This document shows, piece after piece, positions 2,544 through 33,467 of a DNA stretch of 64,000 bases. Under the pieces are notes generated by a model. The model saw only the letters and a list, made by a program, of their open reading frames with translations. It had not been told where the DNA came from and made no database searches. A program made the translations under genes and the position numbers. This DNA comes from Calonectria ilicicola (taxonomy: Eukaryota; Ascomycota; Sordariomycetes; Hypocreales; Nectriaceae): positions 62,001 to 126,000 of the forward strand of contig CP085835.1 of the NCBI GenBank assembly GCA_020809705.1, written 5' to 3'. Every line of letters begins with the position of its first letter. Position 1 is the stretch's first letter.

Positions 2544-2911
2544 AAGGAATTCAATCCACCATCTTGTGATGCCAGTTGTATATTTCTTGGCGAGGTGGGC
2601 AGCTCCGTTAAGTGAAGTTTCAAGAATACAGAGGATTCATGGAAGGTAGTGACAGCAAACAGGACCTGAATAGAATTTGCTCGAAGAGGGCGAACAATAT
2701 ACAGTGTCACTTGTTTTGTATTTAAGCGCATGATTACAAATGTGATTATGTTATGATCATTACAAAAGCTCAACAACGCGTCTTCTATCGCCGCCAACGC
2801 GAAGTTAGCGATGCCGCATTTGGTGATTTTATTTCCTCAAGTTTAGAGATAAAGTAATCAGTTAATATTATAAAACCCCTAAAGGTACCTCCGAGACTGG
2901 TCGTTCCCAGA
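2544..2911. other. Convergent 3' intergenic spacer
   Basis: This spacer separates the stop codons of two convergent genes and probably holds both 3' UTRs. It is AT-rich from about 2700 to 2880. No gene is seen. Confidence 0.5.
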
Positions 2912-4861
2912 TCACAACTTTGCTCCTGCCGAAAGATCTTTAACTACATACCCATTCTCTCCTCGTTCATTCTTATCGCGCAACACTCTCCTCAGAATCT
3001 TGCTGCTGGGGCCTCGAGGTATTTCATGAATGAACTCAATCTCACGAATCCACTTATAGCGTACACGTTTGTCCTTAACGTATTGGATAAGGTCATTTCC
3101 AACGTTGTCGCTGGGCTCTAAGCCGTGTCGCAACACAACAAAGGCCTTTGGTCTTTCGCCGCTGTAATCATCCGGCACTCCCATGACGGCGCAGTCCTTC
3201 ACGTCAGGGTGTGCCAGCAGAAGATATTCCAAATCAGCCGGTGCAACTTGCTGGCTTTTGACCTTGATAAGCTCTTTAATTCGATCCACAATATATATGA
3301 AACCCTGGTTGTCGATTTTCCCAACATCACCCGTACGCAGAAAGCCATCAGCGCCAAATGTTTTAGCAGTTTCCGTGGGGTTGGATAGATATCCCATGGC
3401 AACTTGAGGGCCTTTGGCAAGTATTTCACCAGTTTCATTCGGCCCTAGCTCTTCGCCCGTAATTGGATCAACAATCTTAATTACTGTTGATCCAAGAAGC
3501 ATCCCTGCACTATTGGCATATTTATAGCTATAGTATTCAGGTGGGTGGGTTGTAAGACAGCAACCGGACTCAGTCATACCATAGCTTTGTCTGAACCCTG
3601 TCCAAGGTATCTTTTTTTGAAGTAGGCGGATCGTGTCCTGTCCCAAGGGAGCCGCACCACTTGCAAGACGTTTCAAGCATCTAAGGTCATAATTATCAAC
3701 AACAGGGTCATTTACCAGTCGTATGATGATTGTAGGGACAAGAACCAGGTCAGTGACTTGATGTTTTACAATAGCATCGAGAAACTCTTCTATAATAAAC
3801 CGCGGGAGCATAACACATTCGTCATTGCAAGCAATCGGCCAATGCAGAAATCGCACCAGTCCACTAACTAGTAAATTGCAACCAGTTTAGCATATCGAAA
3901 CACTTATTTTCTTAATAATGTCCACTTACTATGGAATAGTGGCAGGCTGGCCAATAAAGTCTTCCTCTCGGGGCCTGCCGCAGCCTTGAGTTGAAGACAT
4001 TGAGAAATTATATTCTTATGAGATAGCATGACCTGTCGCAACGTATCAATCACAACATTCTTCTCCGCATACGAAATAGATCCAGTCAGACACTTACGGC
4101 TTTTGGCAGACCAGTGGTCCCGCTGCTAAAGTTCAAATAGCCACAGACGTCATTCGTCATGCCCTGTGGGATACGATAAACAGGACTTTGATCGTTATCA
4201 CCGGAGCTCTTTCCAATTTCTAACAACTGCTTCATGTCAATATACCCATCTAGTTCTCCTTCTAACATAAAAATGCGCTCTTTAGGAATTCCGGCCTTCT
4301 TTGCAGCAGTAAGAGCAACCTCAATTGAGCCGGGTACCGTCATGATGTACTTAGTCCCAGCTGTTTCGAGTGCATTCGTCATTTCCTCAGCAGTATATGC
4401 TGGAGATGCCCCATTTACGCGGCCGCCTAGATTCTGATGTAAGTTTCTGGTGTTTTTGTGTCATGATTTTCAAAGATTAGTCGAATTCGATCATTCTTTT
4501 TTAAACGTACCAGCTCTCAAAATCGCATACATAGCTACAGGATACCATATCGTATTGTGACAAAACAGTGAAACCGTGTCTTTTTCTTGCAAGCCATATT
4601 TTTTGACCAAAGCCGTGCATAAATGAGTCGCGTGTTCCTTTACCTGGAAAAAGTCTAATCGCTCTTGACCAGTAGCACTAGTGAAACCAGCAACTTCGTT
4701 GGCTGGGAATTTGAACAAGGGTGAGTATCTTGGATCCTCAAAAGCCCATTCCCATACAGTTAAATCAGTCGGGCCTAGCAAGAGGACAAAAATTAGCAGA
4801 TGGAGTCCCGAGGATCCTATCACATACATTCAATGTCGGGATATCTAGATTTAAAAAGCAT
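2912..4861 (-). CDS. AMP-dependent acyl-CoA ligase, 4-coumarate-CoA ligase type, PTS1
   Basis: Five exons join in frame on the minus strand: 4861-4828, 4774-4511, 4426-4098, 4032-3930 and 3867-2912, giving 561 residues, normal for this family. It is an adenylate-forming enzyme that activates an aromatic or aliphatic acid to its CoA thioester. Visible motifs are the ATP-binding segment NFSSGTTGLPKA at the end of exon 3, the TGDVG motif, DRIKELIKVKSQQV, and the C-terminal PRGPSSKILRR segment carrying the adenylation lysine. The first exon codes only about 11 residues and is fixed by a GTATGT donor at 4827. The protein ends in AKL, a PTS1 variant, so it likely works in peroxisomes with the neighbouring acyl-CoA dehydrogenase. 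Which acid is activated cannot be read from the sequence. Confidence 0.9.
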
Positions 4862-15551: not shown

Positions 15552-18006
15552 TTCCTCTCAGGTTTGGGACTCTGCGGTTCTGGTGGTTGAAGGAACTGCC
15601 GAATCCTGGTGGCGAAGTGTTGATGGCTTGCTTCACGACAGACACAGTGCTGCGAAAGGAGACGAAGACCAAGTATACTTGTAGGCTCCTAGAAGTCTAC
15701 TATATATGAAGGTCAAATATACGATAGGTAGCCATAGTAACATTCTCAAATGTTAAGGAAGCATTTTCGGAGGCGAAACTGGGCGCCAAACTCTACGTCC
15801 CTGGACCCAGCGATCAACCTACTTTTTCTCCCAGATTGGGACCCTGCCACCATTATCTACCGTCACTGCAACCCCATAAAATCCCCTTTAACAAGAGCCG
15901 AGGAGCGAAATTGTCAGGCCAGATTTGCCGATGCCTTCTTCCAGTAACGAGTCTCGGCAGACAGAACCTCGCATCTTTCCCCACTTGCGACCAAGGTTCT
16001 GGCCAAACGTTGGCGCTAACCTTTGTGGCATCGGCGTCTCCAATCCTGGTCGATCGTCCAGAATTATGCCTCATTTGGCGTCGTACCTGCCGGAGCCTGA
16101 TCCATCCGCTGGCGTAATGGCTTAGCATGCAACTAATTAGGTACTCGAATCATTCTATTTTGGCACGCCTGTCAAGCTGGCGACACTGGTGCCCATGCTT
16201 GGGTTTTCAGCCAACAGTTTTAATCCAGGTATATCCCTCCCAGGCCCCATCATAGTTTGAATGTATCGGGCCATTTGAATCAATGGGGAAGTGCCACCGC
16301 CGTGTGGCGTAAGAGGGGTTGGTAGAGGACTGGAGAATGGCCTCCTCAGGTTCGGATCCTTCACTGTAAATGACCTTTTTGGAATTACTAGATATAATCG
16401 TCTTATTTAGACTCACGAGAAATTAGAATGAGAGAAAACGACAGGCAAACCTCCTCGTACAAACCCGTCGTTTGCTATACAGATTTAAGCCATCGGCCGA
16501 TTCCAGAACACCATATGGACTACAAGAAAACTAAAAACTAATGGTCTTACCTCACTGGGTCTAGAAGTTTCAAATTTAGCTGCGCGCGACGTTCCCACCT
16601 TAGTGAGGCTTCTATGAAATCCTTTGTTTCTTTTGACAACGGGTGGTTAGAAGTAGGGTCGAGCTATAGGTCGTGCAGAACTCCAGTATCACTTCATAAG
16701 CCCTCGACCGCTAGCGGATTGTTTTAGCGGAAAATATGGTTCATTTGGAATCAGGACGAACATCTTGTTGGATGTCTACTAATTATTAGTATGCTCCTGG
16801 ACAAGAAAAAAACGTGATCCTGGAGCTGCTAAGAGTGTCTATGGAGACCAAGACATGCCCAGGATATGCCCAGGACTAGGGCTGCATAGGCGAATATGTT
16901 GATTCCCCGGACCCGCAGTAACCAGCTCCTGGACGATGTGGCACGTCCCAAATCTTGACGATCTTGCACCTCAACCCACTCATATGGGACCTTTTATAGA
17001 CATCGAACGTCGGCAAATGCCCAGTCGGATCGTGCGAAAATACCCCACCAAGAATACTGTGATCCATTTTCATCCGGACCGCGTCTTGCTACCGTTGGGT
17101 TAGTGGTGTATTCTCGTTCGTTGAGCCTACGCGTTCTGCACACGGACCAACAGGATGCATGCCCGACGCAGAGCAACAAGCTCAAGTGGTTAGCAACAGG
17201 GCTGAAGAAGCTCTTGAAATGGTGTGACTACACTAGTGCCTAGTCCCTGACTTTATTGAAGAATTTATCGCAATGGAATTTGGAGATCGCACTAGTAAAA
17301 TGTCGATGGCTTTTGTTGATCGCCAATGAACTGATTTAGAGTTTGGTTCGCGACGAAGTTCTTTGAAACCGACAAGGACTAAGGAGGCATCCCCCTAAGC
17401 GAGGCGCTAAGGATCGCCGTTGTAACCGGAGTCCGGGCCGTCAGTTGGATGGTAGCATAGCCCAGTGTCTCGGCCAACTGCGGAGAGACAGCATGGTGAC
17501 TAAACAAGGGGCTCTGATAGGATAACTTCCGGGTTAGAGTAAGTCACGATGTAACAAAGCATCCTCCATTGGTGTTGATGCGACTTTACTGTCCGCGTCC
17601 AGCTCGCCTCGGATTTAGGTGCACCGCTTCTGTGGGCGGCAGAATCGGGGTTAAAGGAGGCGTTCTGACTTCTCCCTTCATCCATTCGTATCTCAGAAGG
17701 TCTAGTAAATGGTCTTATTTCGGCTGATGCAACAGGGATGCAACCTAGTACAATTAACCAACGGCGGGCACTCTCACGCTCTCCTTGTTGGCCGAAGAAA
17801 CGGCCATGAGACTAGACAGACGCCATGATATACCCTTGGATATATGTGCTCTTCTAGTGGGCCGGTTGCATTTACAGGGACGAAAGGTTTGGGCATTTAA
17901 ATTGCTCAGCATACCCTTGATAATGCACTTTTTTACTTAATACTCAGACACCAATGACCGACCCGCAGGCCCCTTGAACCAATCCGTTTTGAGTGCTCGT
18001 CACACA
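15552..18006. other. Gene-poor intergenic region, 2.4 kb
   Basis: No gene was supported. Several open frames of 60-90 codons (for example around 15850-16130, 16155-16416 and 16876-17185) lack family motifs and splice partners. A TATATA run near 15703 is a candidate TATA box for the membrane protein gene on the minus strand. The last few hundred bases must contain the P450 promoter. Confidence 0.45.
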
Positions 18007-19899
18007 ATGTCTTCTCAAGGTATTCTGGTCACGGGTCTCTTAGAGAGGCGGGATTGGAAATCTCTTGGAATTACATTGGCAATCGTACCTCTAATTAGTG
18101 TGGTTTGTTGGTGGATTATATCATACGTTGCATCTCCTCTGAGGCAGTATCCAGGGCCCAAATTAGCTGGTAGGTTGAAGGGAAAACAGTCTGTCAATCC
18201 ATGCGACCGCCTCATGCTAACGATACAACTTTGTGCACAGGATGGACCAACCTATGGCGACTCTCCGTAGTAAGGAGTGGAAACTATCATCTGAAGATCA
18301 AGAAACTGCATGAAGAATATGGGCCTGTGGTTCGAATCGGTCCTAACACGCTCGACCTTGATATTCCTGAACTTATCAAGACCTTGTACGGCACCGATGG
18401 CAAGTGGAAGAAGGTAAGCCTCTCCTCTCTAGCTTGGATATGACACAATGGCAATAGAATGATCGCTAACATGTTGGTTATGTATAGACCGAGTTTTACC
18501 ACAACAACAGCGCCATCGTCAATGGAAAAATTACCTATCACTTGTTCAGTACCACTGACCAGGCTGAACATGCCCAGATGAAGCGACCGATCGTTAAATA
18601 TTACTCTCAGAGCAGTGTACTCGGCCTTGAGCCTTTGTTTGATACCATCATCCGTGACTTTTGTGGTCATCTGGAAAACCGTTTCATGAACGACAGCAAT
18701 AAGCAAGAATGCGACCTAGGTGAATGGATTGGATTCTGTACGTCAAGCTTGCCTGGACATGCCATGCATCACGTATGTTAATGCGTTTAGATTCTTGGGA
18801 CACCAACGGAGCTGCGTCATTCAGCCAGCGGTTTGGGTATATGGACAAGGGACACGACTTTGATGGCACAATTGCGATTGCAGACAAGGCCCTCGATTAG
18901 TATGATTTACCTCAACAGTACTCTTGGCATACAGACAGTATGTTGACTAATTTTCTTTTTTTCTTTTTAGCTTTGCTGCGGTTGGTCAGATGCCCTTCCT
19001 CGACTTTCTCCTCGACAAGAACCCCGTGGTTCGTATCGGCCCTCCGAACCTGGGAAATGTAACGCGCATTTCCCTGGAGCACCTTATTGCTCGCCTCCAA
19101 GGAAAAGACGCCAATTTTGATCCCAAGGTCCCCGACTTTCTTCAGCACTTTATTGAATCTAAAGAGGCCCATCCTGAGCTAGTCAATGATGGTGTCATCA
19201 TGGGCTACCTACTAGTTAACCTTCTTGCTGGAGCAGACACCACTGCCATTACGATTCGATCCATCTTTTGGTACGCTCTTCATAATCCTGCTGCCTACAA
19301 GAAGCTCGAAGAGGAGATTTTGGCTGCCGACTTGACAGACGTTGCATCGTACAGCTCGGCCAGGGCTCTTCCATGTGAGTAGACTTGAATTGAGACATAC
19401 TACGCATCGTAGTCGCTAATTTGTGATCTGGATAGACCTGGAGGCCGTTGTGCGCGAAGCGATGCGGATGCATCCCGGTGTGTGTATGTTGCTTGAAAGA
19501 TATGTTCCCGAGACGGGACTATCGCTACCTGATGGAAAGCTTGTTCCTCCTGGCGTTTCTGTTGGTATTAATCCTTACGTCGTCGGTCGAAACAAGGATA
19601 TTTGGGGACCTGATGCAGACGAATACCGACCGGAACGATGGCTGCAAAATAAGGGTGAGAGCGATACGGTATACAAGGAGCGAATGCGATTATATAATGC
19701 TAGCGATCTCACCTTTGGCGGGGGTTCTCGCATTTGCATTGGACGCAATATTGCGCAAATGGAAGTGTACAAAGTTGTCCCCACGCTCATTCAACGGTAC
19801 GAGATTTCGCTGGCGGATCCTAAGCGGGATTGGGTCGTTACCGGAAGCTGGTTCCCACGACAAAAGGGGTTGATTTGCCATTTACGAAAGCGTGTCTAA
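18007..19899 (+). CDS. Cytochrome P450, pisatin-demethylase-like
   Basis: Six exons, 18007-18169, 18241-18413, 18488-18737, 18791-18899, 18971-19374 and 19436-19899, join in frame to 520 residues, full length for a microsomal P450. An N-terminal membrane anchor (about residues 19-40) is followed by the proline hinge RQYPGPKLAG. The I-helix has AGADTTA, the K-helix REAMR fits E-x-x-R, then PERW, and the heme loop is FGGGSRICIGRN with the ligand cysteine near residue 467. The early segment WTNLWRL...VVRIGPN resembles pisatin demethylase-type P450s; such enzymes often oxidise plant aromatics or benzoate-like compounds. The ATG at 18007 is chosen; the frame extends upstream only to a TTG. In-frame stops after 18780 and at 18898 lie in introns with good GT/AG borders. 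Confidence 0.9.
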
Positions 19900-20621
19900 G
19901 AGCGTGCATGGATCATATGGTAATCCTGGAATAGTGTGGATGGTATTTCGCTCTTGTATTGACTCTTGATGAGAAGTAATGTGGACAATAGATGTTCATA
20001 AAAGAATATCATTACCCGCCGCGTCTGTGGACCAAGGACTACTCATTGAATGTTGCACGGCTAAATGAGACGCGGTGCTCGTACAAAAACCTTGCCACGT
20101 CCGCAATCTGAGCGCACCGCAACTCATCAACAAGTAACGCGACAGAGGAGACTTGTGACCCAAGCCTCCTCTCAAACCTGTCCCACCAGATACGTTAATT
20201 GGGTTTTGATGGTTCAATATCCTGATATAAATGGAGGAGTACCATTTAGCTTTATGCGAAATCGTATGTTCTATCCTGAGCCTGTTTCATACTTGGTGGT
20301 TACGCGAGAGGACAATCTTGCATACGGAGCGAACCAATCAATGACAAATTACCACCGACCTGGACTACCTGCGGCGAGTGAGTACGGGAGTGAAAACGTT
20401 AGTTCTACGTGTTGAATGGAGGCTTATAAGTTTTCTGCCTGTATTTTGTCCTCGGGGGTGTAGAAAGGTCCAACTTGCGCGAGAATCAGATCCAAACTTT
20501 TGCGGAGCTGATAGAACATTTCATCAAGAAACATGACTGTGGCAAGGAAGCACAAGAGAAAGTGGTTGGGTCATAAAATATCTTTTGTAATACTATAATG
20601 AAGCTTAGGAGGCTAGAAGTC
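19900..20621. other. Convergent intergenic spacer
   Basis: This spacer separates the convergent P450 and methyltransferase genes. A 116-codon plus-strand open frame at 20065-20415 shows no motif I recognise and is probably chance. Confidence 0.45.
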
Positions 20622-22174
20622 TCAAGCCGTAAGAGGCTTCTGGGCCCAAGCGACGTTGGCATTGTAGTAGGCATGAACCTTGTTACCACGCAACTCCTTG
20701 CGCAGGTGCATGGCATACATGTGAGTTTCCTCCTTGGACCAGCCGATTTGGTTAGCCATGAAACCAATGGTTCCTTCAATGTCATTCTCAATCGCGGCTC
20801 GCGTGTATCGGCCGATTTCTCGCAGCTTGGTATCCTTGGGCCAACCCGAGGTAGGGAGCTGACGGCGATTCGCATTCATGTCAGCCATACCGAATCATTT
20901 TGGACTCATCCGGGGTTTAATCTCACCTTCAGCAACTTTTCTTCAATGTTGACAAAGCCAGCCTCCTCCAAGGCCTTGCGCTGCAGCTTGTCGCGAACCA
21001 CAGCAAACGAAGCAGTGGAGCCCAGCTTCTTGGCGCCCTCACGGAAGACAATACCCCATTGAGCAGAGGCAGTCTCCTCTGTGACAGTGTCATCATCGGA
21101 CTGAAAGAAGCCGTTGCACTCGAATGACTCGATCCAGCCACCAGGCTTCAGGGCCTTGAAGGCCTGCTTATACATGCGGGTCCAGTCAGTCACACTGCCA
21201 ATGAGCCATCGCATGTGCACGTAGTCGATGGATCCGTCGTCAAATGTCCAGTCTAGCGTGAAGTCATCAATTTGGCTAGGAGCCGGTAGTTAGTTGCTGT
21301 CAGAGGAATCAATCATGAGGGAGTGACTAGTTACAATTGCACATTGGGAGGGACCCATGAGGGCTGGATGGGCGATAGGTCGGTGCCGACAACCTCAACG
21401 TTGGGGTACTCATCAGCGAAATCGCTGTGATAAGAAAGAAACGCTAGTTTAGCCTGGGAACAAGACGTTGGACAGGAACAGGAGGGGGCGGGGAGGAAAC
21501 GTACATGGCCCAAACACCAGTGCCGGTTCCGATATCGACAGCTTTCTGGATTAGCGCATCAGCAGTTATTCGCTCATTTTGGGTCGGCTTCGCATTACCT
21601 CGATGTCCTTTGATAGGGGAGCGAAGTGGAGCTTGCCATCCTGGGCCAGCGTGAACACATGGTGTCTGACAACCCCGCCAACTCAGCATTGCCCAACGGG
21701 CCGGTCCTAGCGTTCAATCTTACTGGATGTCCAAAGTCTCGTTTTGCTGGTCGTCGTTTGCGCCCCTATTGCGTTGCGTCTTGCTCAGCGGTTGCCATTG
21801 CGCGTGATTGTCAGCCCACCTACCAGTACACGCTATCTCCGCGCTCACTGTGGTATGTGCGCCCGTTGAGAGTTCGATACCGCAGGATGCTGGACGAGAT
21901 GGATGCAGTCGAGCTGGCGGCATCGTCGCCGAGGGCTGAGTCGCCGTCATCGTCCTAAAGAAACACAACAGCGACCGCGTCAGCTGTGCTCATTCATTGC
22001 AGTGCACTGCAGTGCTGGCGAAGCCAAGAACGAGGGGTACAGGGTACCCACATCTTCAACTGGCTCCTGTGTCCAGTGCTCTCCCGGCTGGAGCTGACCC
22101 TCGCCCTCTGTGGGCGGCGCCGGCGCGGGGGTGGTGGCCGCCTCTGGCTCCGACAGGGGTTGTGCTTCTGACAT
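20622..22174 (-). CDS. LaeA-like SAM methyltransferase with an apparent frameshift
   Basis: Seven exons can be traced: 22174-22052, 21954-21824, 21706-21599, 21545-21505, 21424-21335, 21275-20927 and 20858-20622. The order is typical of fungal LaeA/TAM-like class I methyltransferases: [30 protein letters not shown], the SAM motif [41 protein letters not shown] and a C-terminal [14 protein letters not shown]. Joined length is 1079 nt, one short of a multiple of three. The break is in exon 3: NAELAGL is read in one frame and VRHHVFTL in the next, near 21670-21680. One missing base there would give 359 residues, the usual family size. It is therefore either a recent pseudogene or a sequence error. 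No alternative splice that I tried keeps both segments. Confidence 0.75.
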
Positions 22175-22923
22175 TGTCGCGGACCTGGGAACTTTGTGAG
22201 CTGGAAAGGAAAGCCGAGTTCTCAAAATGCGAGAGACGGAGATGTGAGGGGACAAAACGGGACATGCAGGGCTGAGTTGGGTTCGTCGCAACCCCCGCCA
22301 TCAATCCCGTGACCGGTTGAGACCACCAAAGGTGCGGCCAGCCATCGAGATTGCTGCGCTGCGGATCCAACCCCCCACCGCGCAACGTGGCTCTCAAGAT
22401 GCCAGTAACCATTTTCACTTTAACCGGCTAAACAGCTTCCATCTCCACCAGCGAGCGCCAGGCCAATAGGACGCCTACCTGGCATGGGCACAGGGCTTAA
22501 TCGCAACACTACTCATTGGTTCCATCCGTTCCGCCATTTCTCCCGCATACAAGCACCTCAACCGCCAAATTATTTTGTGAGTTTTCCCATCGGCAATATG
22601 CTCGCTAATTTACCCATAGCATTACTCCAATGTATTGCCATGATTGAGCATCTCTTGCGTGATCGTACACCATCCTTCCATGATGTAGTAGAGTCTTGGG
22701 AAAGGCAAATAAACACTCTCGATTTCTGGAAAAAGTAATACCTAAACTTTGTGCATGTAATTAAAACCGGACTGCTGGAAACATTCCTGCAAGTGCCGGT
22801 TGCGTTGGTCGCCAATCAAATATTTTGCGGATACACTGCAACCAGAAAAAATTCCCCTTTCGATGAATGACGTCCCAATTCGTCCTAGCTAAACTCATTT
22901 CTCGTTATTATCGGACAACTAAC
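22175..22923. other. Intergenic region
   Basis: It contains the methyltransferase promoter and the 3' region of the membrane protein gene. A short open frame at 22484-22738 has no recognisable features. Confidence 0.45.
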
Positions 22924-23789
22924 TCAAGGAGCCTCGTATATTGGCTGCAAGCTGTTATTTGTTTCGGACAATGGCGCGTCTAATTCGTGTGCACGATCTC
23001 TTGACGGAACTTCGAATGGGCCTTGGTTGACCGGCTGGGCTTGGGCCGAAGCCGATTCCGGAGACTTGATATCTGCAGGCGGTTGGCTCATTTCATCGTC
23101 ACTCGGAGTCTTGTCCTTCCGAAAGCGCTTCCATATGAAATGGCCTAATCCTCCCAACATTAAAATGCCACCAATTGTTGCCCCCACTGCGATGCCAGCA
23201 ACCGTCCCGGTAGATAATTTTGTGCCGGAATCAGTCTGGTCTGATGTCGCGTCTTCAGCCACGGTGTTGGTCTGCCTTGTGCTTGATTGCGTTGGGGTCG
23301 CTGTGCTGGAGGTATTTGTAATCGTGATGTTGAAATAGTGCGATTGCATTACTGCGTATTCAGGGTCTTTTCCGACCTCACTAACCGTCAGCACAAACAC
23401 TGCCTGATCGCCAGCAGATAAATTGTTTGATTCAAAGGTTTTGGGGTCGAGCGAGATGGTCCAATTGTAGCTTGTCTCCGTTGTATCATCTATATGTCTT
23501 ATTAGTAGGGTATTGGGAGAAAATTATGATGCTGTGTACCAAGAAGATAGTCGAAGTAGTAGCCATCGCCCTCCGTGGGCCAATCTTGCCAAACCACCAG
23601 GTTCCACTCCGTCAAATTCGTCGTCCACGATATTTCTACTGTATCTCCCTCGTCGTATGTGAAACTGGTATTATAGTAATTCGTGTCGGTGAGTCTCCAC
23701 ACGCCATTAAAATGATTATTTGAGTCATCAGATAAGACTGAACCGAAAAGCACGACGGTGGCTAAAAGGAAGTGCGCGAGACGGATCAT
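22924..23789 (-). CDS. Secreted-type single-pass membrane glycoprotein, unknown function
   Basis: Two exons, 23789-23540 and 23489-22924, join in frame to 271 residues. The protein begins with a clear signal peptide (about residues 1-20). An extracellular part of about 120 residues carries several N-glycosylation sites such as NTS and NLT, then a Ser/Thr-rich stalk. A Gly-rich transmembrane segment (GIAVGATIGGILMLGG) follows, then a basic KRFRKDK stop-transfer and a hydrophilic tail. This layout resembles Mid2/Wsc-like fungal wall sensors, but I see no WSC cysteine pattern and do not assign a function. A TATATAA box lies about 125 bp upstream. Confidence 0.78.
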
Positions 23790-24299
23790 GTTGAAATCGG
23801 TGAATGCAACGAGGCATTGGGCGTCGGCGGAGGCTTACAATGTTTGATTCAGTTGAAATAGCACTCAACGGCCCAAAAGTTCGCTCGAAAATTAGTAAAT
23901 GGGGTCTGTCCTGTTATATACCTATTGATAAAATTCATGCAAACCTCTGGAATAATTTTCCTTGCTGAGCACGGTTTACAGCCACCGACTCTTGAGAGGA
24001 TGAGATGGATACTTGACAACATTTGACAATTAGCGCCAACAGCCTGGCAGGGGATTTGGGTGGACTTTCCACAAAAAAGTCCTGGGACGAGCAACTTCAC
24101 TGGCTGCGCACGGTAGAGAGCTGCCCGAACTGCTCATATCCTTGTCCTTGTATTGCTGTTGGCAACATGCGATATGATATATTTAGATGAGACTCGGATC
24201 TAAGGGAGCCGTGCAGAATGTATGCCTACATCTCAAGTTGGAGTCTCCCGGTCATGAAGAATTTCTGATGTTTGTGAGGGCAACCTACCAATTGATGAC
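23790..24299. other. Intergenic region
   Basis: It holds the promoter of the minus-strand membrane protein gene and then passes into the relic region that begins around 24300. Nothing else is seen. Confidence 0.4.
23914..23920 (-). promoter_or_regulatory. TATA box of the membrane glycoprotein gene
   Basis: TATATAA is read on the minus strand about 125 bp before the ATG at 23789, a plausible core promoter position. Confidence 0.45.
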
Positions 24300-24300
24300 C

Positions 24301-24773
24301 TTCTGACTCCCTGTGATCATGTCGTGGAGACTATAAAAGATAGTTGTTGTGATGCAGGTCAATTAGCCTTGGGAGTGGACTCAGGACATGGAATCCTGGT
24401 CATCAAAGGTTTGGGGTATGTGCTTAGCCGCTTACGTGGCAAGCAGTCGCGGCCCAACTTTGCCAGTGGTGTTCTGAACTACCACGTACCAAAATCAGTC
24501 GAGATGGCACAGTTTAAGGAAGCCTGGAATATTTTGTGATACTTGGACGCTAACATCTATACGGTTCATGTGCGAGGATTTCTCTGGCTGTTCGACGACA
24601 TTTCAATCATTGAAATCGTCTGTTGCAGAGAAAAGGATGACCATGAACCCCACGCAGCTCTTGAGAAAAGGCTTTCCGAAGCTATCTCCGCTGCCTGTGG
24701 TGATGACTCCTTTGCGAACCTTGGTGGTGCTGGGCCCAGTACAGCATCTCCGATGCATCTTGGAAAGCTTAAC
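24301..24773 (+). pseudogene. Possible NRPS relic (condensation and carrier-domain fragments)
   Basis: Two short open pieces look like non-ribosomal peptide synthetase debris. The first (about 24301-24537) ends HVPKSVEMAQFKEAWNIL, similar to the N-terminal part of condensation domains, where a (L/V)PKSVD...F..AW segment is common. The second (about 24654-24773) reads ALEKRLSEAISAACGDDSFANLGG, like a peptidyl-carrier domain leading to its DSFxxLGGDS serine site, but the serine motif is degraded (GGAGPST). There is no adenylation domain between them, and stop codons separate the pieces. This is an inference from short similarities; it could be wrong. Confidence 0.4.
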
Positions 24774-24852
24774 CGTTTAGTGGCCAAAGTCTCCTCACAT
24801 CAGACGTCAAGGAACTGAAAATTCGGAAACCTTTTTGGTCTCCGATCTGAGT

Positions 24853-25780
24853 CACTGTCAAAAGCTGGGTATGAACCTCATTGTATGCATCTCACTGTTG
24901 GCCTCGCGGCAATATCTACTGTTTCCTTCTCGCAAGAGCAGGCGCCCTTTGAAGCAAAGGCTAGATTCAATACTAATCAATCAATGGGCCGCGTAAGATG
25001 ATGCTTCGCGATTGATTAACTCCCTGCTAATAATGACACAGTGGGAGCTACTATGGAACATTTGGATCTAGTGAAAAGGACGAGGTGTACGAGTATCTGA
25101 AAAAGGTCCATAAAAAGACAAGGGTATGTTTGCTAACAGATGAGTAAAGTTCCCGGTGATTCACAATAAATAGGTTCTCGAGTATTGCCTTTTTCAACCT
25201 GGTTTGTTTATGAATTATCTGAGCTCGCCAATTCCCTCTCCCACCTATCATCCTGTTTATACCAACATGTGGGACATTCAGAATCGTTGTGCTCTTCAAC
25301 TAGAAGATGCAGACTACCGGATTACTTTGACTACGATTCAAGATTTAGGTCGAGTTCTTGATGAAGCCCTTGCTTGCGAAAATACTTGGCCGGAGGTTGG
25401 TGGCATTACTGGATCATCATCAATCATGAGCTCAGAGGTTATCAAGATCGCAGAGTCGATTCGAGGTCAATAATATGGCAACAGTGAAATAAGCATCTGA
25501 CTAACCATTTATAGGTCCTTTCAAGGTTGAAAAAGTTTCTATGGCCAATATTGAGGCTGGTAAACTGGGGACCGACTGGGAAACCAACCTTTCAAAGCCG
25601 GCCAATTTTCATGCAACTCAAGATTGGGATTCATTTACTCATTATGTGGTTGCTGAAATCATGCGAGGAGGTTTGAAAGGGGCTTGGGATGTTTCAGATG
25701 AATGGAACCAACTTCTGTCCCACTTGGGACCGACGTCGGTAGAAGAATTTCTGCAGAAGTTCTGGAAGGATTGGTCATAA
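24853..25780 (+). pseudogene. NmrA / isoflavone-reductase-like gene, 5' part degraded
   Basis: The C-terminal two thirds of an NmrA-like NAD(P)-binding protein is clear: VLEYCLFQPGLFMNYL at 25174 on, then TLTTIQDLGRVLDEA, ENTWPEVGGITG, and after an intron GPFKVEKVSMANIEAGKLG...LKGAWDVSDEWNQLL to the stop at 25780. Exons 25042-25123, 25174-25465 and 25515-25780 join in frame; the last donor is an unusual GTCAAT. Upstream, ISTVSFSQEQAPF at about 24900-24950 looks like the end of the family's third beta strand, but it is in a different frame from the following exon. The N-terminal glycine-rich NAD(P)H-binding loop was not found. The gene is probably a truncated remnant; a live gene with an unusual 5' structure is less likely. 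Confidence 0.65.
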
Positions 25781-26649
25781 GGCTTACTAGAGCTTGGGTA
25801 CAAACTTTGTTTCCAATTCCCTGGCCCTCAGTCGACGGGTAAAGGATGGCAAAGTAATCAAAGGTCTGATTACGTATATTCTCATCAATCTAAGTTCAGT
25901 TTCATCATTATAGGATAAATGGGTTCAACGTTGTCGACAGATATCGGCAATTTCCTCTGATATTTCTTCTCTTTTAGCTGGAGGAATATTTAAAACCAGG
26001 TCCATTTCTTTGATATTCAAAAACGCAAGTAAACAAGACGCGGAGGAGTAGAATCTCGGATTTCTTGTCTCCGTTGAAGGTAAATGTGACCAGTTTGAGC
26101 AATGAGAAATGTTCGGTGTACTTTCATAAAAACCTTGGTTGATATTGTACTAATATAATGAGAAACTGCTCTTTTGAATTCTGGGATTTCTGAATATAAA
26201 TCAGCAACGAATTTACCATTACGGATATCAGTTACACCAACCGTATTTAGTAGCTCTAATTACGCCCCAGCCACTATAAAAAAAGTGGGCAAATAAAAGT
26301 AGTCTGGCCCATGGGATGGCCGTTTGCTAGACCTTTTGTCAACCAATGGAAAGATATCATCTGAGACATGCATTATGATTTTTCTTTTAAAGCCCATTTT
26401 TCCATTTTCTATTGGCTTTTGCAGACGTCATTGATTGAGAATTCTCGCAAGCATATTTCTAGAGAACTTATAAAAATACTGCAATCTCCTACTTGAAGTT
26501 TTCCGGCACTAGCTTGAGTACAATACATTAACCGACAGTTGCACGACCATATTTACGGTTAGATTTGCCCTTTTCAATAAACATTGACCCTACTGATCGC
26601 TAATAGTAAATTTCGACCCAAAAAGAAACATTTGGATCAAAACAAGAAG
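25781..26649. other. AT-rich spacer before the HPr sequence
   Basis: No gene is seen. The stretch is clearly AT-rich. A TATAAA sits at about 26469-26474, some 175 bp before the HPr ATG. I see no recognisable bacterial gene or insertion-sequence remnant in it. Confidence 0.45.
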
Positions 26650-26907
26650 ATGTATCAACAAGAAGTAACCATTACTGTACCCAACGGTTTGCACACACGG
26701 CCTGCGGCACAATTTGTCAAAGAGGCAAAGGGATTTTAGAGTGAGATCACAGTTACTTGCAATGGCAAATCGGCTAGTGCGAAAAGTTTATTTAAGTTGC
26801 AAACACTTGGTCTTACGAATGGAACCGCGATCACGATTTCCGCAGAGGGGGAGGATGAGCAAAAAGCGGTGGAGTATTTATCCAAGCTTATGAATGAGTT
26901 AGAGTAG
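26650..26907 (+). pseudogene. ptsH: Bacterial phosphocarrier HPr (ptsH) with one in-frame TAG
   Basis: The frame codes 85 residues, exactly the length of enterobacterial HPr, and reads as that protein from start to stop. Seen directly: [21 protein letters not shown], with the phosphorylated histidine at residue 15 and Arg17; then VKEAKGF, a TAG at codon 30 (26737-26739), and [19 protein letters not shown] with the conserved Ser46 region, ending in [18 protein letters not shown] and a TAG stop. HPr carries phosphate from enzyme I to sugar-specific enzyme II in the bacterial PTS, which fungi lack. No ptsI or crr lies beside it. The close agreement with gammaproteobacterial HPr suggests recent transfer or a chimeric assembly. 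The single stop breaks it unless it is read through; an intron ending at that AG would delete the active-site histidine. Confidence 0.9.
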
Positions 26908-27287
26908 CTCTACGAATGAATGTTAAATAAATCCCTAGCTGGCCGAGCTATCCCATCTTAGCGTGAGACTGATCCTTTCTTTTCTACAAACGGAGCATGT
27001 TGAGTAGATACTGACGATTGTGGCATTGGATTTTTCGTTGTATAAACAACCCGGTTATCCGGGGGGACTATGTGCATGGAAGACTTGAAAAAGGCAGTCA
27101 TGTAGTTGATCTGGACAATCCTGGATGCAAGTGGCAAATTGATCGTATAATAAGCCTCTATTTTGTACGACTAAGTGCAGCAAAGTAGGCAATTCTTTCT
27201 ACAAGACCTTCATTATCGACAACAATTGCTATGCTGCCTGTGACGGAAAGAATTTAATAAATCAGTGTAGCGATTTGTGCCATCCTG
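26908..27287. other. Intergenic spacer after the HPr sequence
   Basis: No enzyme I gene or other bacterial coding sequence follows HPr here, unlike in a ptsHI operon. The stretch includes the 3' region of the regulator gene ending at 27288. Confidence 0.45.
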
Positions 27288-29646
27288 CTACTCCAATTGT
27301 AACCTGGATGAATCCAAATGCATCGTCTCTTTCATCAGACTGTCAAAAAATGTCATATCAACACCTTGGAACGGCCAATTATCCATCTCATTCATGATGC
27401 AAGAGAGTTCCGTAGATGACTGAAGGGAGGTTGGCTCATATTCATGAGCCAGAGATTCGGAAATACATTGTTCGTCTGGATGTGCCGAAGAATTGGCGCC
27501 CATACTACTTTTGCTCGCCTCATTTATTCCATTGGGATTTCGATTATCGATTGGTGATGTGAGATGATGTGTTGCCAGCGTACTACTTGATGTAGCGAAT
27601 GAGCTGCTTTGCAGGATATGGTCTCGAGAGATATAATCTAATATGGGCGAAGTTTCCTCTTGCAACAACTCCCTGGATATGGGATCCTGGCGAGAAATTT
27701 TGATAACGCCGAGGTAAGGTAGCTGTAAACGAAGCTCTTCGCTTTCCTCGACCTTTCTTGAAGAGCTATACCCATCTATATTGCCGGCGGCATCGCTACC
27801 ACCAATAACTGCATCTTCCTCAATTTTAAGTAATTGGCGGATGAGTTTGGCGCTGTTTGCTGCTGAATCATCCTCGTTGATACGACCCATCTCATCCATT
27901 ATTTCTAGAACTTGGTACAGCATGGCATGATCACTAGAGCGTTGGTGAGCTAGGAACTGTGTTGCGTTTGTATGCTGTCGAGAATCAAGATGAGCGAGCA
28001 CCAAAGTCATCGACGCTAGGAGGGCAAAGAAGTCCACAGGCCTCGAACAGGACGAGGTTGGATTGAAGGTTCGATGGGCGATGAAGCGCACCAGTATCTC
28101 TCGGCTGGCATTCACGCAAGCTGCCTTGGAATAGTCGTGATCTGCACTGCCCCCGAAGCGTATCATATATGGTAGGTGAAGCTGGTTAAGCAGACCGTAG
28201 TAGTAGACTTGGGCCCCCAGACGCACTGTTTCTAAAAATGCATCAGGAGATCCTGGGGTGAGTCTGTGAAAGCTAGGCTGACGCCAAAAACCGGCAGAAA
28301 TTCTGTCAGAAGCATCCAATAGCTCAGCATCAATTGATTGGGTCTCTTTGTATTCATTTTGGGAAAAGACCTTCTCGTTACGTTCCAAAATGCGGCACGC
28401 CACGTTTGTGAGCAAGCATTCGAATTTTCCGAGGGGAGGTTCGTCTAGGAATTTTGATTGAAACCTAAAACTTTTATCTGATGTTCCCTGAGGAAGGTTG
28501 AGCAGCAGGCTCAAATAAAGGTCCATGTAGACAATGCGAAACCACATCGAGCCCGGGGTGGCATTGGTTTTCGAGTCGATTCGTTGTTGTGGAGGTATAG
28601 GAGAGCGATGGAGGCCCATAAGCTGTGCAGTTGTGATTGCTCTACGATAGACAGCCCATGCCCGTCGAAGGTTGCCACGGTTCGTCTCAAATACGCCCTC
28701 TAACATGATGCAGATAAGAGCTTCAATGGTACCTTGCATGTTGTCCTTGGTCGTCACCCAATTTGTAGCGGCTGCGAACATCCGGCACAAGATATTGCTT
28801 GGACGTTCTGAAAGACCAAGAAACTGTTCTTTGCGCGGAATTTGGAGCGCAATTGAAAATGTGAGCAGTTGCTGGGCCAAGAGGACAGGGTGAGTGTCGG
28901 GCGTCGGAAATTCACATCCACTATAGGTCGCTGAAAGTGACTCCCGTGTGAGTTTACCGTGTGGTTGGGTGTTGACCAAACTATTGTATAGTGATGTTTT
29001 AAAGCCCTCCTCGAAAAGGATCTTAGCATCTTGTTCACAAGGGAATGCTTCTTGGAGGTGGCGACGGGCGACGTCGATGTCGGATTCAATTGATGCTTCG
29101 CACAAATCCGGAGTGAGAGACAGGGAATTTGAATTCGAATCTACACGATGCTTCAGATTACTCAGCGATCAAGGCTGACGAATCAATAATAAATAAGCTT
29201 ACCGAATGCAGCGTCTGGGAATTTCGAACCGATACGTGCTGTGAATCATTGGGGCTATTTGTTTGATCAAACATCATTTCTCCTCCAATGGATGTTGAAG
29301 TCACATCTTGCCCAGAAATAATACCCTTCATTAAATGTTCGACTCTTGAGATCCGGTCTCCCAAGTGTCTGTTTCCCTTCTTTGCAGGAGACAGCTCTTC
29401 GGGCATATCTTGGCTGACACAAGGCACGCGACGGTGCTGGCAACCTAGGCATATGGTATCTTTGGGTGACGGGAATGTGCATCTGATCTTCCGCCGCTTG
29501 CACTCCCAGCAAGACCGCGTCCCTTTGCGGATCTTTCTGCGCGTCGTTCGCGTCGCTTGATCTGGCGACACAGTGGAGCGACCAGCCGATAACCGTGACT
29601 TGGTCATTGTGGAGCAACTTGAGAGTGCGGTGGTGTATTCTTTCAT
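27288..29646 (-). CDS. Zn2Cys6 transcription factor with fungal-specific TF domain
   Basis: Two exons, 29646-29203 and 29150-27288, join in frame to 768 residues. The N-terminal zinc cluster reads CWECKRRKIRC...CLGCQHRRVPC, a standard C-x2-C-x6-C ... C-x2-C-x6-C binuclear cluster that binds CGG-type half-sites. It is followed by a linker (about 90-130) and the long helical middle homology region, with segments such as RRAWAVYRRAITTAQLMGLHR. The C-terminus is acidic and Ser-rich. The open frame extends upstream without an ATG; ATG 29646 is taken, with 29607 as an alternative in good context. It is divergent from the monocarboxylate-type MFS gene at 30276, so it may regulate that gene. Confidence 0.88.
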
Positions 29647-30275
29647 GTGTGAGTCTTCCACGCGGCGGAGAAAGAAATTGGTTGTGGGCTTCGAGGATTT
29701 CGGGGGCTGACCCCATAGTGTCACGCCAGTCAGATAAACTCCGCCGTCACGGGCGAAAAGTGAGCCACCGGCACATTTCGTCCGGGGACAGTAGTCTCTC
29801 GGTGCAGCGTCGATTTATCAGCCCCAACTGCATAATTCTTCTATTTTAATGCTTTGACGTTAAGCGTGGTGCGGAAATTTGTTCCTGGTGCCAACTAATG
29901 CCCCGGGAAGTAATGAAGTAATGCGACATCACTGTCTCCGTTCCCAATCGCCGATGAACAAGAGTTATGCCCCGCGCCATCAACCGCTTTCGGCGGAAGA
30001 AATGCTGGTTTACATCATGGAAGAGATTTTGAGAACCGAGGTAGCTTACAAATTCCTCCCTCAAGCAAAGAGCAAGCCGATTGGTTCTACTATGACGCTT
30101 CATCAAGTCCCCCGTTCGCAACACATGTTTATATACATACCGAGCGGTAGCCACTGCATGGGAACTTTGGTCTCACTGTGTAGCTACCATGGAACCACCA
30201 AACCCAACATAAAATCTCTTTCATAATTACTAAGCTATTAGAATTGTCTTGCCTCAAGATTTAGAATGAGGAAAG
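29647..30275. promoter_or_regulatory. Shared divergent promoter, regulator / MFS
   Basis: This 629-bp region separates the divergent Zn2Cys6 regulator and MFS genes. It contains an everted CCG-TCA-CGG pair at 29744-29752, a layout used by some zinc-cluster factors. No TATA box is obvious. Confidence 0.4.
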
Positions 30276-31568
30276 ATGAAGACCGAGGCCACACTTAACG
30301 ACGAAAACAATCAGCTCGAAAAAGCAGCTGCTAAGGGGAACCCCCCTGACGCTCACAAAGGCGACGCCCCCAATGGCGGAGTTACTGCATTACTTCAAGT
30401 CGTCGCCGGATTTTTTCTCTTCTTTAACACGTGGGGAATGCTCACCACCTTCTCAGTCTACCAGACATACTACGAGTCAGGCGAGCTCTTTCACGCTTCA
30501 TCCGCCAACATCTCTTGGATCGGTTCCATCCAGTGTTTTCTCTTGCAGCTTACTGGACTCGTGGCTGGCCCCATGTACGACCGAGGTTACCTCCGCCTTC
30601 TCCTCCTTACTAGAAGTTTCATGGTTGTCTTTGGACACATGATGTTGTCTCTCTGCGAGGAGTACTGGCAAGCATTACTCGCGCAAGCGTTTTGCGTTGG
30701 GATTGGTAGCGGACTTCTGTTTGTGCCTACTGTTTCTCTACTGCCTACTTGGTTTAGCACACGTATTGGGCTCGCCGTTGGCATCGAGTCGTCTGGGTCC
30801 TCGCTAGGTGGCGTCATCTATCCCATCGTGCTATACCGGTTGATTGGAGAAGTGGGTTTTGCATGGGCGGTCCGATGCGTGGGCTTCATTGCTCTCGCAA
30901 CTTTTGCAGTCCCATTGACGATGATGCGGATGCGTGTGCGAGCCCCGAAGCCGCGAGCTGTCGTTGACTGGGGCGGCTTCTCCGACATACCATTCATAGT
31001 GTATACCCTAGGACTCTTAGTTGGCTTCATCGGCTAGACGGTCCTCCTGTTTTACATCTCCTTCTACCCTGAGAACCGAGGCTTTACTGACACATCACTC
31101 GCCTTTTATACGGCAGCTATCTTCAACGCCGCATCTTGTCTGGGTAGGATACTGCCCAATGCGCTATCCGACAGAATCGGCGTGCTCAATACTGCAGTTC
31201 CATGTACTCTACTCATGGGGGCCACAACCCTTTCTCTTCTAGCAGTACGCAATGAACCAGGTATGATAGTTGAAGCTGTAGTCAGTGGATTATTCAGTGG
31301 TGTGATTGTTGCTTTACCACCTGTCTGCTTCCGGATGCTGACGGAGAATAAGACTATGCTTGGGACTCGGGTAGGGCAGGGTTTTGCAATAGGTGGGTTG
31401 GGGTTACTCATAGGCGGACCAAGTGCAGGTAGCATTCTTGGAGAGACTGACGAATTGGACTGGCAAGGCCTGTGGATCTACGGAGGAGTGACTGCATGTG
31501 CATCCGGGTTTATCTATGCCGCAGTCCGTATAATGAAGTCAGGCTGGGTGCTGAATGTCAAGATTTGA
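30276..31568 (+). pseudogene. Monocarboxylate-transporter-like MFS gene with one in-frame TAG
   Basis: A single open frame of 430 codons is interrupted only by TAG at 31035-31037 (codon 254); both halves are in the same frame. It matches the fungal monocarboxylate permease-like MFS family: a hydrophilic N-terminus, then GGVTALLQVVAGFFLFFNTWGMLTTFSVYQTYY as TM1 region, WIGSIQCFLLQLTGLVAGPMYDRG, and in the second half CLGRILPNALSDRIG and GSILGETDELDWQGLWIYGG. The stop falls inside the seventh transmembrane segment, where relatives carry a hydrophobic or aromatic residue. It is either a young pseudogene, or recoded, for example by UAG to UGG editing as reported in some ascomycetes. A 75-nt in-frame intron (30963-31037) would also remove the stop, but its donor is poor and it would delete much of that helix. 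Confidence 0.8.
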
Positions 31569-31708
31569 GTAATCGGACTGGATACATCAAGGCAAGTGTG
31601 TAGGGTCGGAGACAAGATAGAGAGACATATTTCAAGGGATAATTGGTAACTAGGCTCTTTTATTTGTTGGTTTGAATTTATTTCAGCTAGTTAATTCACC
31701 TTATATAA

Positions 31709-33467
31709 CTAAGCAAACTTCATTACAAAATCTGAATATTGTCTTTCCTTCACTTCATCGCACCGTTTCCGATAGCCGGGCGCAGGACCGTTATATCTCG
31801 TCATGGACCTCTTTTGCTTATGAGCCAAATTTTTGTTTACCCCCGTCATCCATGAATCGACTTCATTTGCCAATAGGCCTTGTCCACACTCGTGGACATG
31901 CGTGGTCCAATCATCCATTCCCTTTTCAGTGGCTTCGACAAAAGTGACTTTATTATCGCGAGCAAATTGAATGAAGTTGGCTACCCAATCGACTGCATAT
32001 TCTATCGACCTAAATAGGCACAAAGTTAGCAGGCTCAAGCGCCGATACAGCAGAAAAAAAACAAACCTGGGTATATTTCCAAACATTTGGTGTGGTCCCA
32101 TAATCATGAACATGTTGGGAAAGTCTTTCACAGTAAGCCCCAAAAAGGTTCTGATGCCGTTGGCCCATACATCCTTCAACTTTGTTCCGTTTAATCCTTG
32201 AAAGTCGACCGCGTTAAAGGATCCAGTGACGGCATCAAAACCCGTCGCGTAAATCAAGATGTCCACCTCATATAAATTTTGCCCAGTTTGAACTCCAGTT
32301 TCAGTAATCATAGAAATGGGATCCTCTCTAATATCCACTAATTTCACGTTTGGCTGGTTAAAGACTTCAAAGTACCCGCTTTCCAAGGGGACTCGTCTTG
32401 TGCCAAACCCGTGGTTTTTAGGGATCAGCTTTTCTGCAACTTGTGGATTGTTTACCCTTTGCCGAATTTTAGCAGCATGAAAGTTGCTGTATAGCTCATT
32501 TGCCTTTTTATCCGTATAAATATCGGATGAAATACTCAATACTTTGGCAAATCCTGGAAGAGCGTACAGCTTCTCCCAGTGCGCTTGACGTTCTTCTTCG
32601 GTCATAGAAAAGACACTCCGCGGATCAGCGACGTGGATAAAACAAGCGTAAGACTCAAGACATTGTCGGAATATCTCAGGGTAGTCTTTTCGAATCTTGT
32701 CCATTTCCTCGGGGCTTATTTTCCGATTCCGTAGAGGTGCAGTCCAATTGGGCGTTCGCTGAAACACAGTAAGGTGCCCTACTTTATCTGCAATGGCTTG
32801 GATCGTTTGGATTGCAGTCGCTCCAGTTCCTATGATTCCAACTCGCTTTCCCTCGAGGCTAGATGAGTCAGCCGGCCATCTTGCGGTGTGCCAGGCCTCC
32901 CCTTTGAAGTTTCGTACTCCTGGAATATTTGGTAGTGTGGGCTGGTTGAGGATTCCCATCGCCGTGACAAGGTAGCGACATGTGTAGGTGTTATCATCTT
33001 CATCTAGCAATAGCCATGAGGAGCTATCTTTTTGAAAATGCGCAGATTTGATCCGTGTGTTGAATTGCATATCCCTCTTAAGATCAAACTTTTCCGTCAA
33101 ATATTGTGTGTACTTGAGCGTTTCCGGCTGAGGCGCAAAGTGCTCGGTCCAGTTCCATTCATCAAGCACTTCTTGTGAGAAAGAGAAGATGTAGGAGTAA
33201 CTTTCTGAATCAAATCTGGCACCAGGGTATCTATTCCTATTTCGTGTGAGATGATGGTTCTGCAGTCATTTTTGGGTTCACTTACCAAAACCACGTTCCA
33301 CCTTCAGCGGACCCAGCCTCTAGGACTCGTGCTCTCAACCCAAGTTGGCGCATCCGATGTAAACTAAAGATTCCACTAAGCCCAGCACCAATTATTAGGA
33401 CATCATAGTCCAGCTCATTGTTGCAGGACCGAAAACAGCCCTCATTGATCCCAGCCACCGAAGGCAT
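31709..33467 (-). CDS. Baeyer-Villiger monooxygenase (flavoprotein)
   Basis: Three exons, 33467-33286, 33236-32067 and 32009-31709, join in frame to 550 residues, typical for type I BVMOs of the cyclohexanone/phenylacetone monooxygenase group. Seen: the FAD-binding GAGLSG near residue 31, GGTWFWNRYPGARFDSES across intron 1, the BVMO fingerprint FKGEAWHTARWP (F-x-G-x3-H-x3-W-P), then the NADPH-binding GTGATA and the ATGFD-like segment YATGFDAVTG. Such enzymes insert oxygen next to a ketone to give an ester or lactone, using NADPH and O2. Intron 2 is 57 nt, keeps the frame open, and is recognised by GTTTGT, CTGCTAAC and TTTAG. The upstream TTG-started extension is rejected. No peroxisomal signal is present. 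The neighbour is a lactonase-fold gene on the same strand. Confidence 0.92.

Follow-up and report, generated by a model that had tools for sequence, protein, structure and literature searches.

Calonectria ilicicola, an ascomycete, carries in one of its chromosomes a gene for the bacterial phosphocarrier protein HPr (ptsH), which probably arrived from the Enterobacterales in an old transfer, remained under purifying selection for a long time, and is now interrupted by a nonsense codon, most likely as a young pseudogene. The identity and completeness of this gene, its single copy, the absence of the phosphotransferase system (PTS) partners searched for, and the saturation of its synonymous sites alongside few residue changes are established here. 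As a bacterial gene in a fungus, the case is of an ordinary kind; what is unusual is its content, a lone HPr. The analysis covered a 64,000-nucleotide stretch of DNA, referred to as the window, which corresponds to positions 62001 to 126000 of contig C11 (at least 3.6 Mb) in a 69.93-Mb assembly of 12 contigs. All positions below are those of the window unless a contig is named.

A complete HPr gene with one internal stop codon

The HPr frame occupies positions 26650 to 26907 on the forward strand and consists of 85 codons and a stop. Its translation yields 84 residues, one TAG at codon 30 (26737 to 26739), and a terminal TAG. The two stop-free halves separately match the Pfam family PTS-HPr (PF00381; E values of 5.4e-09 and 4.2e-14), and both of their scores (36.4 and 52.8 bits) are above the cutoff of 23, which extends the match along the whole length of the protein. 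Both halves also match the NCBIfam model "phosphocarrier protein Hpr" (NF008104; E values of 1.1e-16 and 4.4e-29), whose whole-protein cutoff of 153 bits is reached by neither half by itself. The closest solved chains are HPr structures of the 1ggr/1poh group, with an E value of 9.3e-44 and a colinear match over residues 1 to 85. In an alignment of 17 rows of chosen hits, His15 (26692 to 26694), Arg17 (26698 to 26700), and Ser46 (26785 to 26787) are invariant; His15 is the phosphorylation site of HPr.

Chance is excluded as the source of the match, as each half matches both PF00381 and NF008104 and the three residues are invariant. A preliminary description of this DNA had read the frame as gammaproteobacterial HPr along its whole length, with 85 codons, a TAG at codon 30, and His15, Arg17, and the Ser46 region included, and this reading holds up on all counts. 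The likeness to the HPr/PtsH proteins of Enterobacterales (PF00381 and NF008104; PDB 1ggr and 1poh) comprises 85 colinear residues, a best identity of 86 to 88%, and retention of the three residues. The window copy differs from them in standing alone in a fungal chromosome, without an adjacent ptsI, without bacterial codon choice, and with a TAG at codon 30.

In this assembly, the TAG would stop translation after 29 residues, with His15 inside the resulting fragment and the Ser46 region outside it. The affected column is variable among bacterial HPrs in the alignment used for the HPr tree. The outcome would most likely be a 29-residue fragment encoded by a young pseudogene or null allele, a status that, as judged from the sequence, rests on one codon. 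The sole candidate intron that would excise the TAG, found by eye, was rejected, as its removal would take out His15 too.

It is possible, if unlikely, that the same old transfer gave rise to an HPr that still functions and that the TAG either reflects a mistake in sequencing or assembly, belongs to a minority allele, or is dealt with by read-through or by A-to-I mRNA editing of the type described for premature stops in fungal fruiting bodies. The unbroken remainder of the frame and the conserved key residues speak for this reading. A uL3 exon of this genome, which is nearest to PDB 7r81 and then to 8oo0 and 7olc, chains of the Neurospora and Chaetomium type, points the same way and suggests a filamentous ascomycete host, perhaps in or close to the Sordariomycetes; 5.8S rRNA gave no match. 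A-to-I editing has been observed in Sordariomycetes and Pezizomycetes, and the correction of premature stops in fungal pseudogenes by such editing has been described (PMC7306014). However, the hairpin predicted at the TAG is at chance level: its 3-nt loop is closed by the A, a base that lies in or closes a loop in 30.4% of 2000 random synonymous versions. An RNA-editing signal at the TAG was rejected on these grounds. Distinctly unlikely, in our judgment, is the further proposal that some ascomycetes (this host and Cladobotryum, see below) have taken an HPr from enterobacteria into their own service, to regulate carbon or energy enzymes by itself without a PTS, and that it would still be made here despite the TAG. 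"Still made" here takes the TAG to be an error, an unfixed allele, or a stop overcome at the level of the RNA or the ribosome.

Relatives of the window HPr

The best-scoring of 878 database proteins is 86% identical to the window HPr, and the best of 80 genome loci is 88% identical. Among 394 genomes from the order of locus L002, 351 have an HPr match, the best again at 88%, and no HPr more than 89% identical to the window copy occurs among the matches listed. The named relatives are almost all from Enterobacterales or other gammaproteobacteria, the exceptions being a Nostoc-labelled MAG and one fungal protein. The former (P0103; MAG: Nostoc sp. NMS1) has an enterobacterial-type HPr in which Tyr replaces His15 and is probably a binning or label error. 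A record titled Chryseobacterium sp. 18061 (L073) holds an enterobacterial-type ptsH whose product is 87% identical to the window HPr and is probably mislabelled or contaminated.

The fungal protein (P0061), named "Phosphocarrier protein HPr [Cladobotryum mycophilum]," has 86 amino acids, comes from a contig of 5,027,942 bases, and is 79 to 80% identical to the window HPr. It too is an Enterobacterales-type HPr in an ascomycete, with a best bacterial identity of 85%, but it is unbroken whereas the window HPr is interrupted, and a common clade of the two is without support. No named fungus other than Cladobotryum appears among the 120 matches listed of 878 for the window HPr, and P0061 as the query brings no additional one among the 120 listed of 899; many entries are nameless.

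A tree built from 124 HPr sequences (85 alignment columns) gives the two fungal proteins branches of 0.19 and 0.21 and places neither with support, and its bootstrap is unsettled. Forcing them together costs 12.1 log-likelihood units and is not rejected (AU test, P = 0.276), and the tree is compatible with one transfer as well as with two. As for the protein search and phylogeny proposed in the preliminary description as a check, the search finds relatives in the Enterobacterales, while the tree supports no position for the window HPr.

Paper searches aimed at a fungal HPr or a lone phosphocarrier in a fungus found no published report. In the accessible part of PMC4865484, ptsH is confined to the reference list. 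Two proteins from Enterobacterales donors are mentioned for Phomopsis longicolla (PMC5584002), and the word "phosphocarrier" is absent from the main text of that source as accessible to us. The same is true of the accessible main text on the Cladobotryum genome (PMC10989895), an assembly from which P0061 need not stem. Transfers from bacteria to fungi in Pezizomycotina resemble the window case in that a lone bacterial gene sits amid fungal genes, but the window case concerns a phosphocarrier without its partner system.

DNA divergence and codon usage

Full-length DNA identity between the window gene and bacterial ptsH is at most 72.2% (131 genes, 122 of them distinct). Compared with L012, which is among the closest ptsH genes, the same codon is used at 26 of 73 common residues. 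Codons drawn at random would agree at 24.9 ± 3.9 residues if taken from the fungal usage of the window and at 24.3 ± 3.9 if all synonyms were equally frequent. Across 102 distinct bacterial ptsH genes, synonymous differences are saturated (pS, 0.89 to 1.11) and nonsynonymous differences are few (pN, 0.088 to 0.125 [by the Nei-Gojobori method]). A recent transfer from a sampled bacterial lineage is rejected on codon agreement and DNA distance. The suggestion of the preliminary description that arrival was recent is thus contradicted for the sampled bacteria, and the gene is probably older than was then supposed.

The codon bias typical of ptsH is wholly absent from the window gene, which scores −49.4 on a scale where 102 bacterial genes have a median of +33.0. 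A similar score is seen in just one bacterial gene, L113 (−40.0), whose protein identity is 82%, and the next gene is at −6.0. The window gene has a GC3 of 0.45, no CTG codon, and GAG at 8 of its 9 Glu codons. A GC3 of 0.46 to 0.52 is common among the bacterial ptsH genes sampled, and all 48 genes with a GC3 of 0.35 to 0.52 keep two to eight CTG codons and use GAG for no more than 62% of Glu codons, so base composition is not the cause of the lost bias.

When examined for host-like codons, the gene has lost its bacterial codon memory and fits fungal usage better than enterobacterial usage. In a comparison of fungal with enterobacterial-flank codon usage, it scores +21.7, while the 102 bacterial ptsH genes average −13.0, with a highest value of +19.9. 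For 54 chunks of 13 window open reading frames (ORFs), the value is 16.8 ± 7.5, an in-sample comparison, as these uncurated ORFs also supplied the fungal usage. When the alternative is the usage of 23 low-GC ptsH genes, the margin in favor of fungal usage is only 5.8, and one bacterial gene, L053, scores more (7.5). The Glu codons are not host-like, with GAG making up 41% of them in the window's fungal ORFs versus 8 of 9 in HPr.

These comparisons bear on a quite improbable alternative, in which the gene came later from an unsampled member of the Enterobacterales with unusual codon usage, was then disabled, and was never selected in the fungus. A precedent is L113, a bacterial ptsH that, for an equal protein distance, has diverged as much in its DNA and codons. 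In 88 pairs of bacterial ptsH genes with 73 to 75 common residues, all of which involve this one low-GC gene, DNA identity averages 74.1% (minimum, 71.8%) and the proportion of same codons is 0.355. This yardstick resembles the comparison between the window gene and L012, and divergence by itself does not put the drift in the fungus. A late, unsampled donor would also suit the GAG-rich Glu codons, which are unlike the host's, the lack of a named-fungus orthologue closer than 80% among the matches listed, and the codons common to low-GC ptsH genes and the window gene, which reach 30 of 64 (47%) in L134, a proportion for which no expectation was computed. On the other hand, all 131 ptsH genes are distant in DNA, protein identity peaks at 88% in the 394 genomes of the order, the bacterial genes near the window's GC3 all keep CTG and use less GAG, and nothing of the ptsH bias is left.

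Past selection and probable long residence in the fungus

Neutral simulations from L012 to an equal DNA distance (2000 runs) gave an expectation of about 45 residue changes, with a minimum of 36. As the window HPr differs from L012 at only 10 residues, the stop included, most of its divergence built up under purifying selection. That HPr has just one internal stop is uninformative when taken alone, because 44.6% of the neutral simulations also gave no more than one stop. Of the persisting selection considered in the preliminary description, the past part is borne out by these counts, while present selection is unsupported. The combination of saturated silent sites and a nearly unchanged protein suggests that the gene was useful for long before the stop codon appeared.

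In our judgment, the fungus is a likelier seat of this selection than a bacterium outside the sample, and long residence there is favored over an unsampled donor, since no sampled ptsH with at least 83% protein identity is so free of bias and since a second fungus has an HPr. Under the favored account of an old transfer, a ptsH of Enterobacterales origin would have entered an ascomycete chromosome long ago and would have been kept as a coding gene by purifying selection, with all trace of bacterial codon choice erased.

The surrounding chromosome

The window copy is the sole HPr match in the 69.9-Mb, 12-contig genome, and no second copy of the surrounding 1.3-kb locus was found there. We compared positions 24000 to 30000 with 80 ptsH loci, each taking in up to 3 kb on either side of ptsH (tblastn with six-frame stop-to-stop segments of at least 20 amino acids; E values up to 1e-3), and found no bacterial homology beyond HPr. 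All matches fell in segments starting at 26581 to 26909, which represent the HPr frame, overlapping frames, or the reverse strand of HPr. Remnants of cysK or ptsI near HPr were rejected, as no window segment matched either gene, and the earlier statement that neither ptsI nor another bacterial gene flanks HPr agrees with this result.

That no other bacterial gene was recognized around HPr could be taken to favor an assembly chimera or bacterial contamination, but this explanation, raised in the preliminary description, is hardly credible given the length of the contig, the fungal-like codons, the random-level codon agreement and DNA identity of at most 72.2%, the absence of cysK and ptsI sequence beyond the HPr gene, and the absence of near-identical DNA from E. 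coli genomes, plasmids, and 131 other ptsH genes. Contamination by E. coli was rejected (among 5,426 E. coli genomes, three gave a blastn match, with 73.2% identity over 87%), as was contamination by a plasmid (DNA identity of 69.3 to 72.4% in three plasmid records). By protein, 114 plasmid records match HPr, the best at 88.2%. A viral vector was likewise rejected, with seven stretches in IMG/VR fitting a pattern and none being a relative.

Fungal sequence is present on both sides of HPr on this chromosome-scale contig, recognizable on the left only from about 21.3 kb outward. On the right lies a Zn2Cys6-type fungal transcription factor gene (27288 to 29724, reverse strand; ORFs 27288 to 29105 and 29158 to 29724), convergent with HPr. 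Its 605-amino-acid ORF (27288 to 29105) matches Fungal_trans (E = 3.2e-4; 20.3 bits, below the curated cutoff of 23), and a stretch just upstream matches Zn_clus (E = 4.1e-4; 20.8 bits, just under the cutoff of 21). Homologues reach 56% identity, and the named ones among the 120 listed of 429 hits are all from ascomycetes of several classes. The profile matches and homologues confirm the fungal regulator gene previously noted beside HPr. The "decayed fungal region" described to the left was not borne out: a six-frame Pfam search of 17.0 to 32.0 kb recognized no family between about 21.3 kb and HPr, and eight ORFs left of HPr gave a single match, at 0.2, with E values up to 1 allowed.

Farther out, there are a P450 (about 19.1 to 19.8 kb, forward strand), a methyltransferase-like stretch (about 21.1 to 21.3 kb, reverse strand; 25.6 bits, cutoff of 27), an MFS match (about 30.4 to 31.2 kb, forward strand), and an FMO-like ORF (31709 to 33169, reverse strand). 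Together with the Zn2Cys6 regulator, these make the region from 17000 to 33200 resemble a secondary-metabolism neighborhood. Elsewhere in the window, at 1182 to 3856, an acyl-CoA dehydrogenase gene (forward strand) adjoins one for an AMP-binding enzyme (reverse strand).

Around HPr itself, the motif TATAAAAA (26469 to 26476, forward strand), some 180 bp before the start codon, is a possible fungal TATA element, and AATAAA (26926 to 26931, forward strand), shortly past the stop, is a possible polyadenylation signal. As bare motifs, the two would fit a fungal transcription unit around HPr. Repeat-induced point mutation (RIP)-type indices for 24.0 to 26.5 kb differ little from the average of the window. 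HPr lies in the 500-bp bin starting at 26500, where the TpA/ApT ratio is 0.92 (window, 0.67) and the (CpA+TpG)/(ApC+GpT) ratio is 1.16, values that do not clearly point to RIP as a cause of the damage to HPr. DUF3435 marks the captains of Starship-type elements. Carriage of HPr by such an element was rejected, as the one match on C11 among seven listed DUF3435 matches is about 3.5 Mb off. Five of the seven matches (which include G000 C6:5781283-5782494) have internal stops, possibly reflecting introns, and the set may represent remnants of Starship captains.

PTS partners and possible function

In bacteria, the sugar phosphotransferase system has HPr at its center; fungi are not known to possess this system. 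EI-N, EIIA-Glc, and EIIC found no match in the 69.9-Mb genome, with positive controls for each (other EII families were outside the search), in line with the earlier claim that PTS partners are absent. A phosphate relay from EI through HPr to EII within one cell was thus not found. Since the three partners have no match, sugar phosphotransfer by the window HPr appears very unlikely, and the intact protein was probably no phosphate carrier for sugar uptake.

In E. coli, HPr has the PTS-independent partners PykF, PfkB, NagB, and Adk (PMC8167557). By analogy, the intact HPr would most likely have acted independently of a PTS, as a small soluble binder or modulator of central carbon enzymes. For the time before the gene was interrupted, a regulator-type role of this sort is the most parsimonious explanation, and we infer both this role and the present inactivity of the window HPr.

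With silent sites saturated and 88% of the protein unchanged, a non-PTS role probably kept HPr in place, if the drift was fungal. In that case, the gene would offer a naturally occurring case in which to test, inside a eukaryotic cell, what HPr does independently of a PTS. Should a single transfer account for the Cladobotryum HPr as well, the gene would have a traceable history across ascomycetes; otherwise, the same bacterial gene would have been captured twice.
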